From Microbacterium sp. SLBN-154 (GTDB lineage Bacteria > Actinomycetota > Actinomycetes > Actinomycetales > Microbacteriaceae), in NCBI RefSeq assembly GCF_006715565.1, contig NZ_VFNL01000001.1:496001-560000 (forward strand): 64,000 nucleotides of DNA, read 5' to 3'. The position numbers and the translations under genes are program-made. The notes below the pieces were generated by a model. The model ran no database searches, was not told where the DNA came from, and saw only the letters and a list, made by a program, of their open reading frames with translations. This document shows, one piece after another, positions 7,085 through 64,000 of this stretch. Within the stretch, counting starts at the first letter, position 1; each line of letters opens with the position of its first letter.

Positions 7085-7224
7085 CGTCCTCTCGTCGTGC
7101 GCGACACAGGGCGGCTGGCGCCCCGCATTTCCAGCATGACCCAGGGGCAGTTGCGGCTCTACGCCTTGACAGGATCGCGTACGCGTCGATCATGCACGGG
7201 TCGCAGTCGGGCCGCGCACGACGA

Positions 7225-7256
7225 AGCCCCCGACCGGGAATCCCAGGTCGGGGGCT
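7225..7256 (-). terminator. Hairpin terminator of tRNA-Leu
   Basis: Perfect 11-bp arms (AGCCCCCGACC, 7225-7235, and its complement at 7246-7256) with a 10-base loop, just downstream of the tRNA on its strand. Confidence 0.75.
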
Positions 7257-7268
7257 GATTCGTCGCTG

Positions 7269-17357: not shown

Positions 17358-17509
17358 TCGACCGTCACTTCCTGCGGATTGACGAACTGGCTCACCCAGG
17401 GGAAGGCATAGAAGAACAGCCCGTAGAGGATCGCGGCGACGAGGACGATCACGATGAACAGCCGAACCCACCAGGGGCCGGGAAGAACCCGCCAGAACGC
17501 GGCGTACAT
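17354..17509 (-). CDS. Small single-span membrane protein between sortase and amidotransferase genes
   Basis: 51 residues, ATG at 17509 sharing one base with the sortase stop (TGATG); its stop overlaps the next GTG. One hydrophobic segment (VRLFIVIVLVAAILYGLFFYAFPWV, about residues 15-39) and an acidic C-terminus. Translational coupling on both sides shows it is expressed. Small proteins occur at this place in many actinobacteria. Function unknown. Confidence 0.8.
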   Translation of the reverse strand: MYAAFWRVLPGPWWVRLFIVIVLVAAILYGLFFYAFPWVSQFVNPQEVTVE

Positions 17510-18366
17510 CAGCTGACTCCCTCGGTGAGCGAGGCCGGCGGTCCGTCGGCGTAGGGCTGGAAGGACTCGAAGACGCCGTAGGCGACGATGCGCTCGGCCA
17601 GTGAGAACATCGGGCTGCAGCTGGTCATCGTGATGTAACGCCCGTTCGCCGGGACGTCGGGCATCTGCGGCACCGGAAGCAGCACCTCGACCTCGTCGGG
17701 CGTGACGTACTCCAGGGTGCGGAAGCGGTAGGTGTACCACCCCGCCGGCGTCTCGATCACGATGGCATCCCCGACATGGAGCTCGGCGATCCGGTTGAAC
17801 GGCGCGCCGTAGGTGGTGCGGTGACCCGCGACGGCGAAGTTGCCGACTTCGCCGGGCATCTTGCTTCCGGGGTAGTGGCCGATGCGGAAGTTGTCCAGCG
17901 TGCCCGCGCGGGTGACCCCACCCGCCATGGTCCAGGCGTAGTCCGAGCCGAAGCGCGGGATGCGCATGATGGCGAAGTCCTCGGTGCCGGTCGGCTCAGG
18001 AAGGATCACCGGCTCGGCCGGCACCGGCTCAGCGTCGGCGGGTTGGTCGGAGGGGGTCGGCACGGCCTCGGGCAGACCGTCGCCGTACTGCTCGGCCCAC
18101 TGCTCCGACAGCTCGCGTCCCTCGGCATTGGCCTGTGCGCCGAAGATGAGGTCGCCGAGGTACATCTGCCACCCGACGTAGAGCAGGGTCACGACGCCCG
18201 CGGTGATGAGCAGTTCGCCGAAGACGCCGACGATCGATACCCGCGGTCTCGGCTTCGCGTGGCGCGGTGGCTTCCCGGGAGGCGACGCCTGTGACGGCGC
18301 CGCGCGGGCGGTGCGATCACGGCGCAGGGCCGGCTCGGTCATCCGCACGTCACGCTCGTCACCCAC
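17509..18366 (-). CDS. srtE: Class E sortase
   Basis: 285 residues with an N-terminal cytoplasmic tail, one membrane anchor (~45-65), an acidic Pro-rich linker and a sortase domain. The catalytic triad is visible: His182 (AGHRTTYG), Cys250 (TMTSCSP) and Arg259 (AERIV). Class E enzymes join proteins with an LAXTG signal to peptidoglycan. A fitting LAATG substrate is encoded at 61265-63019. GTG 18366 is chosen because a TACAAT -10 box ends six bases upstream. Divergent from crgA; first gene of a three-gene coupled operon. Confidence 0.93.
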   Translation of the reverse strand: MGDERDVRMTEPALRRDRTARAAPSQASPPGKPPRHAKPRPRVSIVGVFGELLITAGVVTLLYVGWQMYLGDLIFGAQANAEGRELSEQWAEQYGDGLPEAVPTPSDQPADAEPVPAEPVILPEPTGTEDFAIMRIPRFGSDYAWTMAGGVTRAGTLDNFRIGHYPGSKMPGEVGNFAVAGHRTTYGAPFNRIAELHVGDAIVIETPAGWYTYRFRTLEYVTPDEVEVLLPVPQMPDVPANGRYITMTSCSPMFSLAERIVAYGVFESFQPYADGPPASLTEGVS

Positions 18367-53964: not shown

Positions 53965-54453
53965 TCAGGTGTTGTCGCGGAGGTCGCGCGCGAAGTCGGT
54001 GATGCGCAGGCGCAGCGCCTCCATCCGGCGCGCCCGGGCCGCCTCGACGTCGAAGCCGAGATAGGCGGGCGGCGGCAGCCGGCGGACGTTCTGCGAGCAC
54101 TCGAAGTGTTCGCAGACGAGCGTTCCAACTGTGTTGCCGTTGCGCCCCGCGCGCCCGGCGCGCTTCGCGCTGAAGAGCACGACCTCGTTCGGAAGGGTCA
54201 CGTCCTCGCACCATGCACACTGGGTGCGAGCGAGCGTGCGCTGTTCGGTCTGGCGGAGGACGATCCCGATGAGGTCGTCGTCGACGGGGATCACCGCGTA
54301 GGCGGCAAGCGGCGTCTTCGGCGGACGCCAGCCGAGGAAGTCGCGTTCGGCCCAGTCGATCCCCGCGAGATCGGGCATGACGACGGCGGCGCGTTCGCGC
54401 TGCGAGGCGTTGACGAAGGACGCGCGGATGTCCTTCTCGGTGAGTGCGTGCAT
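53965..54453 (-). CDS. FBP (FusB-type, EF-G-binding) zinc-finger protein
   Basis: 162 residues from ATG 54453 (GAAAG upstream; GTG 54459 also possible). FBP-type C-terminal treble-clef finger: cysteines in TQCAWCEDV and VCEHFECSQN. The N-terminal part (LTEKDIRASFVNASQRERAAVVMPDL) and GWRPPKTPLAAYAVIP match actinobacterial FBP proteins. FusB relatives bind elongation factor G and rescue it from fusidic acid. A short frame with a leaderless promoter lies upstream and may regulate it. Confidence 0.8.
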   Translation of the reverse strand: MHALTEKDIRASFVNASQRERAAVVMPDLAGIDWAERDFLGWRPPKTPLAAYAVIPVDDDLIGIVLRQTEQRTLARTQCAWCEDVTLPNEVVLFSAKRAGRAGRNGNTVGTLVCEHFECSQNVRRLPPPAYLGFDVEAARARRMEALRLRITDFARDLRDNT

Positions 54454-54558
54454 AGTCACGGCTTTCGTGTGCGGCTCGCTCGGAGCGAGCGGAATCGGAT
54501 GCCGCGGGCAGACCGCCCGCGAAGAAGAGGCGTCGGCGCCGCTTCGCGGCGCGCACGA

Positions 54559-60516: not shown

Positions 60517-60969
60517 ATGTCGAAGCTGATTCTCACGAACGAGGTTGCCGGCCTCGGCTCGGCCGGTGACGTCGTCGATGTCAAGGACGGGTACGCCCGT
60601 AACTACCTCATCCCGCAGGGCTTCGCCGTGCAGTGGACCCGCGGTGGCGAGAAGCAGGTGGCGTCGATTCGCGCCGCCCGCGAGGCCCGCGCCTTCCACG
60701 ACCACGAAGAAGCCGTGGCGCTGAAGAACCGTCTCGAGTCCAACACCGTCAAGCTGACCGTCAAGGCCGGCGCCGAGGGGCGTCTGTTCGGTTCGGTCAA
60801 GACCGGTGACGTGGCCGACGCGGTCAAGGCCGCCGGCCTCGGTGAGCTGGACAAGCGCACCATCCACATCACCTCGCCGATCAAGGCCGTGGGCGAGCAC
60901 GAGGCGACCGTTCGCCTCCGTGACGACCTCACCGCCGTCATCACCCTGCAGGTCGTCGCCGCGAAGTAA
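60517..60969 (+). CDS. rplI: 50S ribosomal protein L9
   Basis: 150 residues. N-terminal domain [34 protein letters not shown] and C-terminal domain [14 protein letters not shown] are both typical. Last gene of the operon, followed by two hairpins of the GGATGCCGCGG family. Confidence 0.98.
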
Positions 60970-60992
60970 CGCGCCGACACCTCACGCGGTTC

Positions 60993-61042
60993 CGGATGCC
61001 GCGGAGCGGCCCTCTCCCGAGAGGGCGGCCCCGCGGCATCCG
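60993..61042. terminator. Two-part hairpin after rplI (GGATGC-arm family)
   Basis: Outer 12-bp arms CGGATGCCGCGG / CCGCGGCATCCG; inner 8-bp arms GCCCTCTC / GAGAGGGC around CC. Can act in both directions. Confidence 0.75.
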
Positions 61043-61152
61043 TCGTTCCCGGGTCTCGCGAGCCGCCGCGATTGCGACGAGCCACCGTGCGGGTGACAGC
61101 CGCTCGGCGCGGACCGGGTGGCTCGGTGAGCGACCCCACTCGACGAAAGAGC

Positions 61153-61203
61153 CGGATGCCGCGGAGCAGCCCTTCCCCAGGGGCTGTCGCCCCGCGGCAT
61201 CCG
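61153..61203. terminator. Two-part hairpin before the chaplin-like gene end (GGATGC-arm family)
   Basis: The same outer arms CGGATGCCGCGG / CCGCGGCATCCG as the hairpin 150 bases to the left; inner arms CAGCCC / GGGCTG. Probably stops the leftward transcript of the surface-protein gene. Confidence 0.75.
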
Positions 61204-61264
61204 TCGTAGCGGCGTGACGACACGGACGCGCATCCCTCGCGACGCGCGTCCGTGACCGTGTGAT

Positions 61265-63019
61265 TCACGCCGTACGGTTACGCACCTTCCGCAGGCCCGC
61301 GCCCAGGACGATGAGTCCGAGCGCCAGCAGCAGCGCCGCCGGACCTGTCGTCGTGCCGCCGGTGGCGGCGAGGGGTGCGGTGGCGGTCGCTGCGCCTGCC
61401 ATCACGCGCTCGGCGGCGAGTGACGGAACAGCGGATGCACCGGTCGCCCCAGGCGTTCCCGGGCTACCAGGGGTGCCGGGGGTACCCGGCTGACCGGGCT
61501 GGCCGGGAGTACCCGGGGTGCCGGGCTGGCCGGGGGTGCCGGGCGTGCCGGGGGTGCCGGGCTGGCCGGGGGTGCCGGGCGTGCCGGGGGTTCCGGGTGT
61601 GCCGGGCTGGCCGGGCGTGCCGGGGGTGCCAGGCGTACCCGGGGTGCCAGGCGTACCCGGGGTGCCAGGCGTTCCCGGCGTACCGGGCTCGCCCGGAGTT
61701 CCCGGCGTACCGGGCTCGCCCGGAGTTCCCGGCGTACCCGGGTTACCAGGCGTACCCGGGCTGCCAGGAGTTCCCGGCGTACCGGGGGTGCCAGGAACGA
61801 CCGTGGTCGAGCCGCTTTCGCTGTCGCCGATGACCGAGACGGCGTTGCCGCCGATGGTGATCGGCAGTGACATCGGGGCGAGGATCTGGGTGCCGCCGAG
61901 GAGGCTGTCCTCGCCGGAGGTCACTCCGGTCATCCCCCCGCCGCTGCCGTTCGCGCCGGTCTGCGTCGTTGACGAGCTGGTGCTGTCGCCGATGCCGGAG
62001 ATGGCATTGCCGGCCACGGTGACGGGTGCGGTGATCGGGGCGATGACCTGGGTGCCGCCGAGGATGCTGTCCTCGCCGGAGGTCACGCCGGTGATCCCCC
62101 CGCCGCTGTCGCCGTTCCCGCCGTTCGCGCCGGTCTGCGTCGTCGACGAGCTGGTGCTGTCGCCGATGCCGGAGATGGCGTTGCCGGCCACGGTGACGGG
62201 TGCGGTGATCGGGGCGATGACCTGGGTTCCGCCGAGGATGCTGTCCTCGCCGGAGGTCTCGCCGGTGATCCCCCCGCCGCTGTCGCCGTTCCCGCCGGTC
62301 CCGTCGGTCTGCGTCGTGGACGAGCTGGTGCTGTCGCCGATGCCGGAGATGGCGTTGCCGGCCACGGTGACGGGTGCGGTGATCGGGGCGATGACCTGGG
62401 TTCCGCCGAGGATGCTGTCCTCGCCGGAGGTCTCGCCGGTGATCCCGCCGTCGCCGTTCCCGCCGTTCGCGCCGGTCTGCGTCGTGGACGAGCTGTCGCT
62501 GTCGCCGACGACCGATACGGCGTTGCCCGAGACAGTGATCGGAGCGTCGACCGACACGATCCCCTGCGTTCCGCCGAGGATGCTGTCCTCGCCGGAGGTC
62601 TCCGCCGAAACGGGCGCGGAAGCCGGGGCGGACGTCATCGTCGACGAGTCGGACGAGCTGTCGCCCAACACCGAGACCGCGTTGCCGGTGACGGTGACGG
62701 GGGCTTCGACGTCGAGCAGGGCTTGCGAGCCCGACCCGATCGCGTCGGAGCCGTCGGTGGTCGCCACCGGCTGCGATGCCGATGAGGCCCCGGGCGGCTG
62801 AGCCGTCGAGGATTCCGACGTCGATTCGCTGTCACCGATGACGGAGACCGCGTTGCCGACGACCGAGACCGGTGCGTTCAGATCGACGACGGCTTGGGTA
62901 CCGGAGAGGAGGCCGTCCTCCCCCGTGGTTTCGGCCGCCGTGGCGACCGTTGCGCCGAACAGCGTGAGGCCGCCGGCAATGACCGCGCCCCAGAGGGCAC
63001 GCTTGACGAACGTGTGCAT
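61265..63019 (-). CDS. Chaplin-like repeat and collagen-like surface protein with LAATG sorting signal
   Basis: 584 residues. Signal peptide 1-~29. Seven repeats (29-90, 91-139, 140-195, 196-253, 254-311, 312-365, 366-406) share a GTQ-x8[15 protein letters not shown] core, close to the chaplin pattern but with Ala, Val, Ser, Thr or Gly where chaplins have Cys. Residues 407-527 are about 40 Gly-X-Y triplets, mostly GTP, with GQP and GEP. The C-terminus has LAATG (550-554), a helix (559-576) and RKVRNRTA. A class E sortase should attach it to the wall. It may be an adhesive or amyloid-forming coat. Confidence 0.85.
61439..61801 (-). repeat. Collagen-like Gly-X-Y coding repeat
   Basis: About 360 bases of nine-base-periodic DNA (CCG GGG GTG CCG-type units on the plus strand) coding for PGTPGTPG. 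Slippage-prone; length is likely to vary between strains. Confidence 0.9.
61802..62602 (-). repeat. Tandem ~160-175-bp repeats coding for the chaplin-like units
   Basis: Repeats 3 to 7 of the surface protein. Units 4, 5 and 6 are almost identical at DNA level over more than 120 bases, which suggests recent duplication or gene conversion. Confidence 0.88.
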
Positions 63020-63097
63020 GGAAGTTTCTCCCTAGAACTGATGGATGTCGCGCGAACGCGGTGACTCTCGTGCCGCCGCAGGGCGGCGCAGAGTCCA

Positions 63098-64000
63098 TCA
63101 GTCGGGAGAAGCGTCTGTCTCGAAGATCGGCGCCCCGGGAAGGCGATCGTCCTCAGGACCGGCTCGTCGCATCCAGGCACGGTATGCGAAGAGCGGTCCG
63201 AAGGCGATCAGCCCCCAGGTGCCGAGGCTGGCGCCGCCAGACCCGGCGGCAGTGGCATCGCCGGGGAGAACTCCCCCGGGTGAGTCGAAGAGTCCACCGC
63301 GCTTCGCGGTGAGGTCGGGGCTGGCGGTGGCGCCGTCGCCCACGACGGGCGACGCGGAAGTCGACCCGCCCGCGGCGGACGGCCGAGTCCCGTCGCTCAG
63401 GCGGTGGGCGAGCTGAAGAACACCGGATGCCGCGAACGAGGCCGTCACAGCGGCATCCGCTTCCGAGGTTCCGGCGGCGACGACGTTGACCAGAGAAGTG
63501 TCGATCGCATGTGAGGGAGGCGTGGCGGCAGGGGAGCCAGGCCCCTCACCTGCCGCCGGGGGCCGGACGGCAGGTGCGGCGGGCACGGGGCCCGCAGGAG
63601 CGAGGATGTGTCCCGAATCGCCGACGGTTTCGCCGACCGACTCGACACCGTCGTCGATCGATCCGCCGATCTGCTCGACGGCGTCGGGGATGCCGGCGGC
63701 CTCGGCCACCTTGCCGACGACGGGCGTCTGCTCGACGACGTCCGTCACCACCTCGACCACGTGCGACACCGGACGCTGCTCGCCGACGGACGCCGTCAGC
63801 TCCCCGACGGCGTCGACGGCGGATGCCGCGACCTCGGCCACCGGGCGGACGACAGGCTGCAGGGGCGCGGCGGCTGCGAGATCCCCCGCCGTCTTCGTCA
63901 CGTCTTCGGCAACGGTTCCCACGGTTCCCGTCAGCGCGCCGGAAGCGTCATCGACGACAGACGCACCCGCACCGACGATCTCACTGACGGGCGCGGTGGC
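63098..64000 (-). CDS. Surface-type protein of unknown function, 5' end outside window
   Basis: The frame is open to base 64000, so the start is beyond the window; GTG 63922 is internal. About 300 visible residues. An alternating Val/Ala-rich region (VVRPVAEVAASAVDAVGELTAS, HVVEVVTDVVEQTPVVGKVAEAAG) looks amphipathic. A Pro/Ala/Gly linker and one weak hydrophobic C-terminal segment (LGTWGLIAFGPLFAYRAWMRR) follow. No sorting motif. It is 78 bases upstream of the chaplin-like gene on the same strand, probably one operon. Confidence 0.65.
   Translation of the reverse strand, partial: ATAPVSEIVGAGASVVDDASGALTGTVGTVAEDVTKTAGDLAAAAPLQPVVRPVAEVAASAVDAVGELTASVGEQRPVSHVVEVVTDVVEQTPVVGKVAEAAGIPDAVEQIGGSIDDGVESVGETVGDSGHILAPAGPVPAAPAVRPPAAGEGPGSPAATPPSHAIDTSLVNVVAAGTSEADAAVTASFAASGVLQLAHRLSDGTRPSAAGGSTSASPVVGDGATASPDLTAKRGGLFDSPGGVLPGDATAAGSGGASLGTWGLIAFGPLFAYRAWMRRAGPEDDRLPGAPIFETDASPD

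Follow-up and report, generated by a model that had tools for sequence, protein, structure and literature searches.

We analysed a 64,000-nucleotide (nt) stretch of the genome of Microbacterium sp. SLBN-154 (contig NZ_VFNL01000001.1, positions 496,001 to 560,000), hereafter the window, which holds a gene for a chaplin-like repeat protein with a cell wall-anchor signal. By comparison with related loci, we found that this protein matches the chaplin profile, that a gene for a secreted protein (hereafter the partner) lies directly upstream on the same strand, and that a conserved structured RNA spans the partner's stop codon together with the Shine-Dalgarno (SD) sequence and start codon of the chaplin-like gene. 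We consider it rather probable that the two genes constitute a surface-coat operon with RNA-mediated translational coupling, anchoring by a class E sortase and a wall-spanning spacer; the single transcript, the coupling, the anchoring and the function as a coat are what we infer from the comparisons. An earlier note on this stretch, made from its letters alone, had described the chaplin-like gene and missed both the partner gene and the RNA element, since recognizing them needed comparison.

A conserved RNA across the partner's stop codon and the Shine-Dalgarno sequence

The predicted fold of the chaplin-like gene's leader in the window has an energy of -49.9 kcal/mol (z -3.06 relative to 200 shuffles) and is a three-way junction, formed by a closing stem that joins the stop region to the SD and by two inner hairpins. 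A covariance model (R1) was trained on 24 Microbacterium-type sequences, the window not among them, with a manually specified structure. It found the element where expected in 72 of the 81 sources at an expectation value (E) of at most 0.0064, 48 of these being outside the training set. Its only other match at E<0.01 was an opposite-strand echo of the element in one locus (L045), and over the whole genome R1 gave a single match at E<=1, at this very place (E 0.0036; 150 of 4229 first-look candidates scored). When the 71 R1 matches were aligned, 29 of the 38 pairs changed on both sides, with 310 such cells compared with 95 +/- 11 after shuffling, and the covariation score reached 0.257 against 0.101 for shuffled and 0.033-0.065 for slid alignments; these counts were made on an alignment fitted to the model and therefore lean towards the structure. 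Among the 4227 families of Rfam 15, the only match at E<=1 in window positions 60900-64000 was mir-605 (60993-61042, E 0.45), far below its gathering score.

The closing stem leaves its mark on the partner's last codons. The upstream open reading frame (ORF) ends in SPD (66), TPD (9), RPD (2) or APD (1) in 78 of 80 named loci, both exceptions (L036, L045) being genes at the end of a contig; such endings occur in 86 of the 8048 long ORFs of the same loci, the 78 included. The tail proline is encoded by CCT or CCC in 78/78, compared with 52% CCY among 2415 proline codons in gene bodies, while the prolines at -13 and -10, outside the stem, are CCG in 37/74 and 24/62, respectively (the loci are related, so these counts are not independent draws). 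We attribute this restriction to the pairing of the partner's last codons and stop with the stretch that holds the SD. In the minimum-energy folds of 77 sequences, the serine wobble base forms U-A in 41, C-G in 25 and A-U in one, and is unpaired in 10.

The two arms also fit each other specifically. Over 79 sequences (the window and 78 loci), the stop arm paired with its own SD arm at a mean of -26.9 kcal/mol, compared with -12.2 for shuffled arms, -11.5 for reversed arms and -15.3 for a decoy after the start; the own arm beat the shuffled mean in 79/79, the reversed arm in 78/79 and the decoy in 76/79. Arms swapped between loci paired worse, both in 70 sequences (own -28.1 vs swapped -22.2, 0/2000 permutations) and in 19 dereplicated ones (-24.5 vs -18.1, 0/5000 permutations). 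Other tandem ORF pairs of the same loci with gaps of 50-150 nt showed no pairing excess (51 pairs, mean +0.3; 1/51 at -8 or below). Ensemble folding gave the SD a probability above 0.5 of pairing with the stop region in 69/79 sequences. Thus, the SD is predicted to be base-paired with the end of the upstream coding sequence and the pairing is kept across relatives, as in elements that couple translation by masking the SD.

The coupling that we propose would operate as follows. The last codons and stop codon of the partner gene (UCUCCCGACUGA) would pair with the SD of the chaplin-like gene, the folded RNA bringing the two together across a stop-to-start gap of 77-134 nt (77 loci); a ribosome reaching the partner's stop would open the stem and expose the SD, and the second gene would then be translated. 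Since the partner's stop codon lies in the same stem as the SD and the ribosome must open that stem, translation of the anchored protein should depend on that of the partner, and the secreted and chaplin-like proteins are probably made together. The first gene would supply a secreted protein of amphipathic helices with 11-residue periodicity, and the second a repeat protein linked to the wall through its LAATG motif by a class E sortase, with its Gly-X-Y tract spanning the wall; together, the amphipathic and the anchored protein may form a coat or adhesive layer.

The partner has a signal peptide, an amphipathic helical periodicity and the C-terminus ...DDRLPGAPIFETDASPD. No family scored above the Pfam cut-offs, either for the part inside the window or for the whole protein and five relatives; a newer precomputed Pfam entry, PF27499, is listed for some of its relatives. 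Below threshold, phasin was matched by the partner itself, phasin and apolipoprotein by two relatives and perilipin by one. The hydrophobicity of the partner shows a sharp period of about 3.7 residues; this is its own top period and, across 71 proteins with the partner included, the value at which the excess over shuffles peaks. A period of about 3.7 is a mark of 11-residue amphipathic helices, as in apolipoproteins and similar proteins. AlphaFold2 predicted an all-helical partner with weak scores (predicted local distance difference test, pLDDT, 54.8; predicted template-modelling score, pTM, 0.36). A cysteine-rich multi-repeat chaplin of Nonomuraea indica (L113) is likewise preceded by a frame with the ending SPD-TGA, but the RNA models place no element there.

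To follow the element beyond these loci, we scanned genomes with a second model (R2), built from the alignment of the 71 R1 matches and used with stricter filters. R2 matched 35 of 299 genomes of the window's family, one place in each. Twenty-five of the 35 also carry a match to the chaplin family profile PF03777, which lies 167-891 nt (start to start) from the RNA in 24; in G235 the PF03777 match is on another contig, yet chaplin-like repeats follow the RNA by eye. The ten other R2-positive genomes, likewise inspected by eye, show chaplin-like repeats downstream in eight and another LAXTG-anchored repeat protein in two (L126, L127), and their upstream tails end in PD in 9/10 and PA in 1/10. 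In L126 and L127 the RNA and an SPD or TPD partner precede LAXTG-anchored repeat proteins whose bodies show no resemblance to chaplins by eye, as though another anchored protein had taken the place of the chaplin-like one. A scan at the level of the order gave matches in 23 of 297 genomes, 11 of them in three other families. There, the arms beat 95% of shuffles in 11/11 (partly by construction). Four of the tails read SPD, two of these before a TAG stop, another four read SPA, two read SPG and one reads APD; in other families, therefore, the arms keep pairing although the residue differs. In ten of these 11 cases the protein encoded downstream has a signal-like N-terminus, and in seven of the ten an LPXTG or LAXTG motif is visible. 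In L140, the gene downstream of the RNA seems lost. More tentatively, as a possibility short of probable, we suggest that the RNA is a new cis-acting family, present in one copy per genome in several families of the order, which would hard-wire an obligatory coat of one secreted amphipathic-helix repeat protein and one translationally coupled, sortase-anchored repeat protein (chaplin-like or exchanged). Such a coat would be the counterpart, in non-sporulating actinobacteria, of the short-plus-long chaplins, with the RNA better kept than the anchored proteins.

The chaplin-like protein and its wall-anchor signal

The coordinates of the locus are given in Table 1. The earlier note's cysteine-free ORF was borne out (584 amino acids, 0 cysteines), and so were its signal peptide, its LAATG followed by a helix and a basic tail, and its estimate of about 40 Gly-X-Y triplets, of which we count exactly 40 without interruption. 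The seven repeats it described are present as well; the 15-residue core that it quoted for them occurs exactly in three only (repeats 4-6). Those three are identical over 38 residues, their DNA being 97-99% identical, and are therefore recent copies. The remaining four are variants that share 50-71% identity with the other repeats. When the nearest relative compared (P0001) is set beside this protein, repeats 1, 2 and 3 each fit best with the repeat at the same position, and the number of repeats varies between relatives.

Table 1. Features of the locus and of the class E sortase gene, in window positions (aa, amino acids; Cys, cysteine)
Feature	Positions	Strand	Remarks
Partner gene, secreted protein	63098..64000	(-)	runs past the window edge to genome position 560414; 438 aa in all; stop codon at 63098-63100
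Conserved structured RNA spanning the partner stop codon and the SD and start of the chaplin-like gene	63014..63118	(-)	
5' arm of the closing stem	63094..63111	(-)	partner's last codons and TGA stop, with a few bases after it
3' arm of the closing stem	63027..63046	(-)	includes SD GGGAGA (63028-63033)
Chaplin-like (PF03777) repeat protein with wall-anchor signal	61265..63019	(-)	ORF of 584 aa, 0 Cys
Signal peptide, residues 1-29	62933..63019	(-)	by eye; N-terminus conserved in relatives
Chaplin-like repeat 1, residues 31-68	62816..62929	(-)	
Chaplin-like repeat 2, residues 88-125	62645..62758	(-)	
Chaplin-like repeat 3, residues 141-178	62486..62599	(-)	
Chaplin-like repeat 4, residues 197-234	62318..62431	(-)	exact 15-residue core of the earlier note
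Chaplin-like repeat 5, residues 255-292	62144..62257	(-)	same as repeat 4 over 38 residues; not scored alone
Chaplin-like repeat 6, residues 313-350	61970..62083	(-)	same as repeat 4 over 38 residues
Chaplin-like repeat 7, residues 367-404	61808..61921	(-)	
Spacer, 40 Gly-X-Y triplets (28 GTP), residues 410-529	61433..61792	(-)	not conserved in relatives
LAATG sorting signal, residues 550-554	61358..61372	(-)	then hydrophobic stretch and basic tail
rplI, convergent neighbour	60517..60969	(+)	identified by eye from sequence
Class E sortase, expected LAXTG anchoring enzyme	17509..18366	(-)	NF033747, 230.7 bits, cut-off 160

The whole protein matches PF03777 at 50.2 bits (cut-off 21, E 2.3e-13), and five stretches pass alone. 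Scored singly, six of the seven repeats reached 26.5, 21.7, 19.4, 19.3, 18.3 and 18.2 bits, two of the six thus exceeding the cut-off. The earlier note had named this profile search as a check of its proposal, which a lack of similarity above background could refute; such similarity was found. We conclude that the protein is related to chaplins by profile and is not a canonical chaplin. The chaplin domain is defined by two cysteines and three GN motifs spaced 12-13 residues (PMC13251363, in the portion available). Across its 584 residues the window's protein has no cysteine, and each repeat carries one GN, with GT or GS and GD at the flanking positions; the match to PF03777 ends at profile position 45-50 of 57. 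In the 3.57-Mb one-contig genome, PF03777 matches this single place at E<=0.001, so that short and long chaplins do not occur together at this threshold, below which a diverged short chaplin could score.

The earlier note knew of no described protein with this combination, but the build is not unique: a protein search gave 571 relatives at E<=1e-3 among 8000 candidates scored, and PF03777 occurs in 74 of 299 genomes of the family, which we take from the named relatives to be Microbacteriaceae. The word chaplin stands in the source name of 26 of the 120 relatives listed (Microbacterium, Agromyces, Mycetocola, Nonomuraea and others). Most of the listed relatives of the Microbacterium type have 0-2 cysteines; those from Nonomuraea, Planotetraspora, Microbispora and Streptosporangium combine repeats of this kind with 12-18 cysteines and lack an L[AP]xTG towards the C-terminus. 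Of the named loci that match over the full length, the closest is that of Microbacterium sp. AK009, where identity in the best segment is 81%.

Among the 80 related loci, dnaB is present in 59 and rplI in 54. Several side observations concern these loci. A contig filed under a Fulvimarina metagenome bin (L036) holds a Microbacterium-type copy, probably by a binning error. In Agrococcus sp. Marseille-P2731, a single contig carries the locus twice (L052, L109), some 280 kb apart and with the same match, either through a real duplication or through an assembly artefact. The chaplin-like frame seems broken in the spacer or repeats in L037, L071, L087, L096 and protein P0001, through either sequencing error in GC-rich repeats of public assemblies or real slippage. 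Antisense to the repeats runs a 427-residue open frame (window 61518-62801, plus strand), which we take to be an artefact because it follows from the repeat composition. Just outside the window, the dnaB frame of L035 (7299-9989, plus strand) carries a long in-frame intein-like insert, and in L037, L042, L077 and L095 the gap between the N and C parts of dnaB is larger than in most loci.

The Gly-X-Y tract uses mixed synonymous codons. The collagen profile PF01391 matches the whole protein at 46 bits (cut-off 27.2) and no single stretch passes alone, so that this match rests on composition along the tract. From 80 loci, we parsed 75 ORFs, 65 of which have a visible anchor. Of the 65, 18 have at least 10 Gly-X-Y triplets, a number that includes a pair of identical copies from a single contig and one tract made of GTD with almost no proline; other relatives carry units of PTD, TDPG or GGGNP, among others. 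What the relatives have in common is a low-complexity spacer of variable length, in which glycine at every third place is not kept. The collagen stalk of the earlier note is hence not supported as a defining part of these proteins; we read the tract as a wall-spanning spacer, which in this one protein may form a triple helix.

At the C-terminus, LAATG is followed by a hydrophobic stretch and RKVRNR, the LAXTG-helix-basic tail arrangement of class E sortase substrates; enzymes of this class act on LAXTG (PMC5148588, part consulted). The genome encodes such an enzyme, in line with the wall-anchor signal proposed earlier, and at two further sortase places the best match is class F, below its cut-off for the pieces given. 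Of the 299 family genomes, 281 have a class E sortase, and the 18 that lack one include no PF03777-positive genome (74/74 have it); this co-occurrence is a matter of consistency and not proof, because the enzyme is nearly universal. We infer covalent anchoring to the wall by this sortase. Taken as a whole, the earlier interpretation keeps its chaplin relationship and its LAXTG signal with a class E sortase, and loses uniqueness and the collagen stalk as a defining part.

Weighing the readings

Several observations speak against our proposal. R1 missed nine of the 81 sources (L036, L052, L060, L067, L105, L108, L109, L113, L115); R2 recovered L052, L105, L108 and L109 at E<=0.005 and L060 at E 0.023, matched L036 partially, cut by a contig end (E 0.08), gave only E 0.8 in L115 and E 0.45 in L113 (Nonomuraea), and had no match at the right place in L067. 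Weaker off-place matches occurred with R1 (L099, E 0.016; this window, 7214-7264, E 0.28) and with R2 (L108, E 0.021; this window, 54448-54537, E 0.048). GC-rich RNA folds stably anyway, which qualifies the window's z of -3.06. SD-stop pairing has p<0.35 in 9/79 sequences, and the aspartate wobble base is unpaired in 26/77 minimum-energy folds (C-G in 47, U-A in four). A scan for promoter- or terminator-like sites found none, and such a scan says little here. R2 matched at E<=0.001 in only 25 of the 74 PF03777-positive genomes. Among 30 further PF03777 loci (L002-L031), 29 have an upstream frame ending CCYGAYTGA (the pattern being the search key); in 24 of them, no more than 5% of 200 shuffles equalled the pairing of the native arms, and in the other five more than 5% did. 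As some CCYGAYTGA loci lie in genomes with no R2 match, the model misses diverged copies. With respect to a coat, the repeat region as a whole is not hydrophobic (grand average of hydropathy, GRAVY, 0.04), and residues 30-550 carry a net charge of -40.

The distribution of the covariation bears on what the RNA does. Both-side changes fall on 27/28 pairs of the upper stem and inner hairpins and on only 2/10 of the stop/SD stem, which speaks for a sensor or processing element (a thermometer, a ligand- or protein-binding leader, an RNase site) with the inner three-way junction as its working part and no coupling role; the gap of 77-134 nt likewise exceeds the optimum of under 25 nt reported for coupling in E. 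coli (PMC7538156, part consulted). Yet the best-conserved block is the stop-codon arm, which holds all seven invariant columns outside the start codon (alignment A3), rather than the junctions, and the stop/SD stem is paired in most sequences. The stop codon and the SD allow little change in that stem, for which we rely on the swap and shuffle tests. Overall, we regard an element of this kind as rather unlikely. A different reading takes the C-terminal SPD as a protein signal, a recognition or processing tag of the secreted partner, with the RNA pairing as its consequence. Further upstream in the tail, DDxLPxSPxxxTD (window about 63112-63150) is conserved with free codon choice at its prolines and thus seems selected as protein, besides the part played at the RNA level, and the two loci of another family with a TAG stop keep SPD. 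The residue at -3, however, varies among S, T, R and A in the 78 loci while the bases keep pairing, A or G replaces D in 6/11 loci of other families with the pairing intact, and the proline codon inside the stem is restricted whereas those outside are free. We find this reading improbable, and retain translational coupling as the preferred role of the RNA.

As for the protein, a reading along the lines of the earlier note makes it a chaplin amyloid coat or adhesin, anchored to the wall and standing on a collagen stalk that forms a triple helix. The whole-protein matches to PF03777 and PF01391 agree with it, as do the LAATG with a class E sortase and the fibrils that cysteine-free ChpE forms in vitro (PMC3079736, part consulted), but the glycine periodicity is not kept among the anchored relatives, each repeat has one GN in place of three, and the profile match stops before the domain end; as a whole, the proposal strikes us as improbable. 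The 24-residue repeat cores are hydrophobic (GRAVY 0.72-1.01; 0.163-0.600 for published short chaplins, according to the part consulted of PMC3079736). Given the GRAVY of 0.04 for the repeat region as a whole and the acidity of the mature protein, we give adhesion or a hydrated scaffold the same likelihood as a water-repellent coat. AlphaFold2 predicted the repeats as all-beta and solenoid-like, with weak scores (pLDDT 61.8, pTM 0.60); that they form a rigid beta-solenoid adhesin stalk, and no amyloid coat, seems unlikely to us, though deserving of serious attention. The two-gene operon with a coat or adhesive layer remains our preferred account of the locus.

Comparison with known systems

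Chaplins form an amyloid coat that helps Streptomyces grow into the air. The annotation of chaplin-like LAXTG multi-repeat proteins is already known, as are SD masking and coupling as principles. In the literature searched (titles and abstract starts), we found no study of a chaplin-like LAXTG multi-repeat protein from the window's family, and open-access titles and abstract starts, a set that mostly leaves out subscription journals, showed no such RNA element; where "chaplin" and "translational coupling" met in open-access text, the part consulted of PMC4255298 concerned another gene pair, and the one other such paper deals with water structure, judging by its title and abstract start. The RNA thus apparently represents an undescribed regulatory family, in which one stem joins the downstream SD to the very stop codon of the upstream gene. 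The conserved partner gene and RNA offer direct handles on the role of chaplin-like proteins in bacteria not known for aerial growth; a 2013 review, in the part consulted, mentions a chaplin-like gene in the non-sporulating Arthrobacter chlorophenolicus and suggests surface attachment as a possibly older role (PMC4255298).

The long chaplins ChpA-C of Streptomyces coelicolor, whose LAXTG is anchored by class E sortase (PMC5148588, PMC5618241, parts consulted), share with the window's protein the PF03777 domains, the signal peptide and the LAXTG signal. They have two chaplin domains compared with seven repeats here, and they are accompanied by short chaplins, in contrast to the single PF03777 place of the window's genome. 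Chaplin domains without cysteines are known from ChpE and from the C-terminal (second) domain of ChpB (PMC3079736, PMC13251363, parts consulted), and the window's repeats likewise lack the two cysteines; ChpE, however, is a single short peptide and the ChpB case one domain of two. CwpA and CwpB of Actinoplanes missouriensis are SrtE-dependent wall-anchored surface proteins outside Streptomyces and, unlike the window's protein, have no chaplin domain according to their authors (PMC13251363, part consulted). The multi-repeat "chaplin family proteins" of Nonomuraea, Planotetraspora and Microbispora resemble it in length and in their tandem GGNQ..APIxxPxNxxGNxVxVxG repeats, but have 12-18 cysteines, retain GN at the first position and show no L[AP]xTG in the last 70 residues.

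Scl1 is a bacterial collagen-like protein. Proteins of its type combine an uninterrupted Gly-X-Y tract with a sortase signal, as the window's protein does; its tract, unlike theirs, is almost all GTP and not conserved among orthologues, and its match to SclA (NCBIfam) is weak (21.7 bits vs a cut-off of 400). Coupling by unwinding a structure that blocks a downstream start is described for rplK-rplA of E. coli and for the MS2 coat-replicase pair cited there, and is one of two mechanisms proposed in E. coli (PMC7538156, part consulted). As in those systems, the ribosome on the upstream gene would open the structure over the downstream start. Here, by contrast, the predicted coupling would act through a three-way junction that is conserved in several families and whose SD stem includes the very stop codon of the upstream gene.

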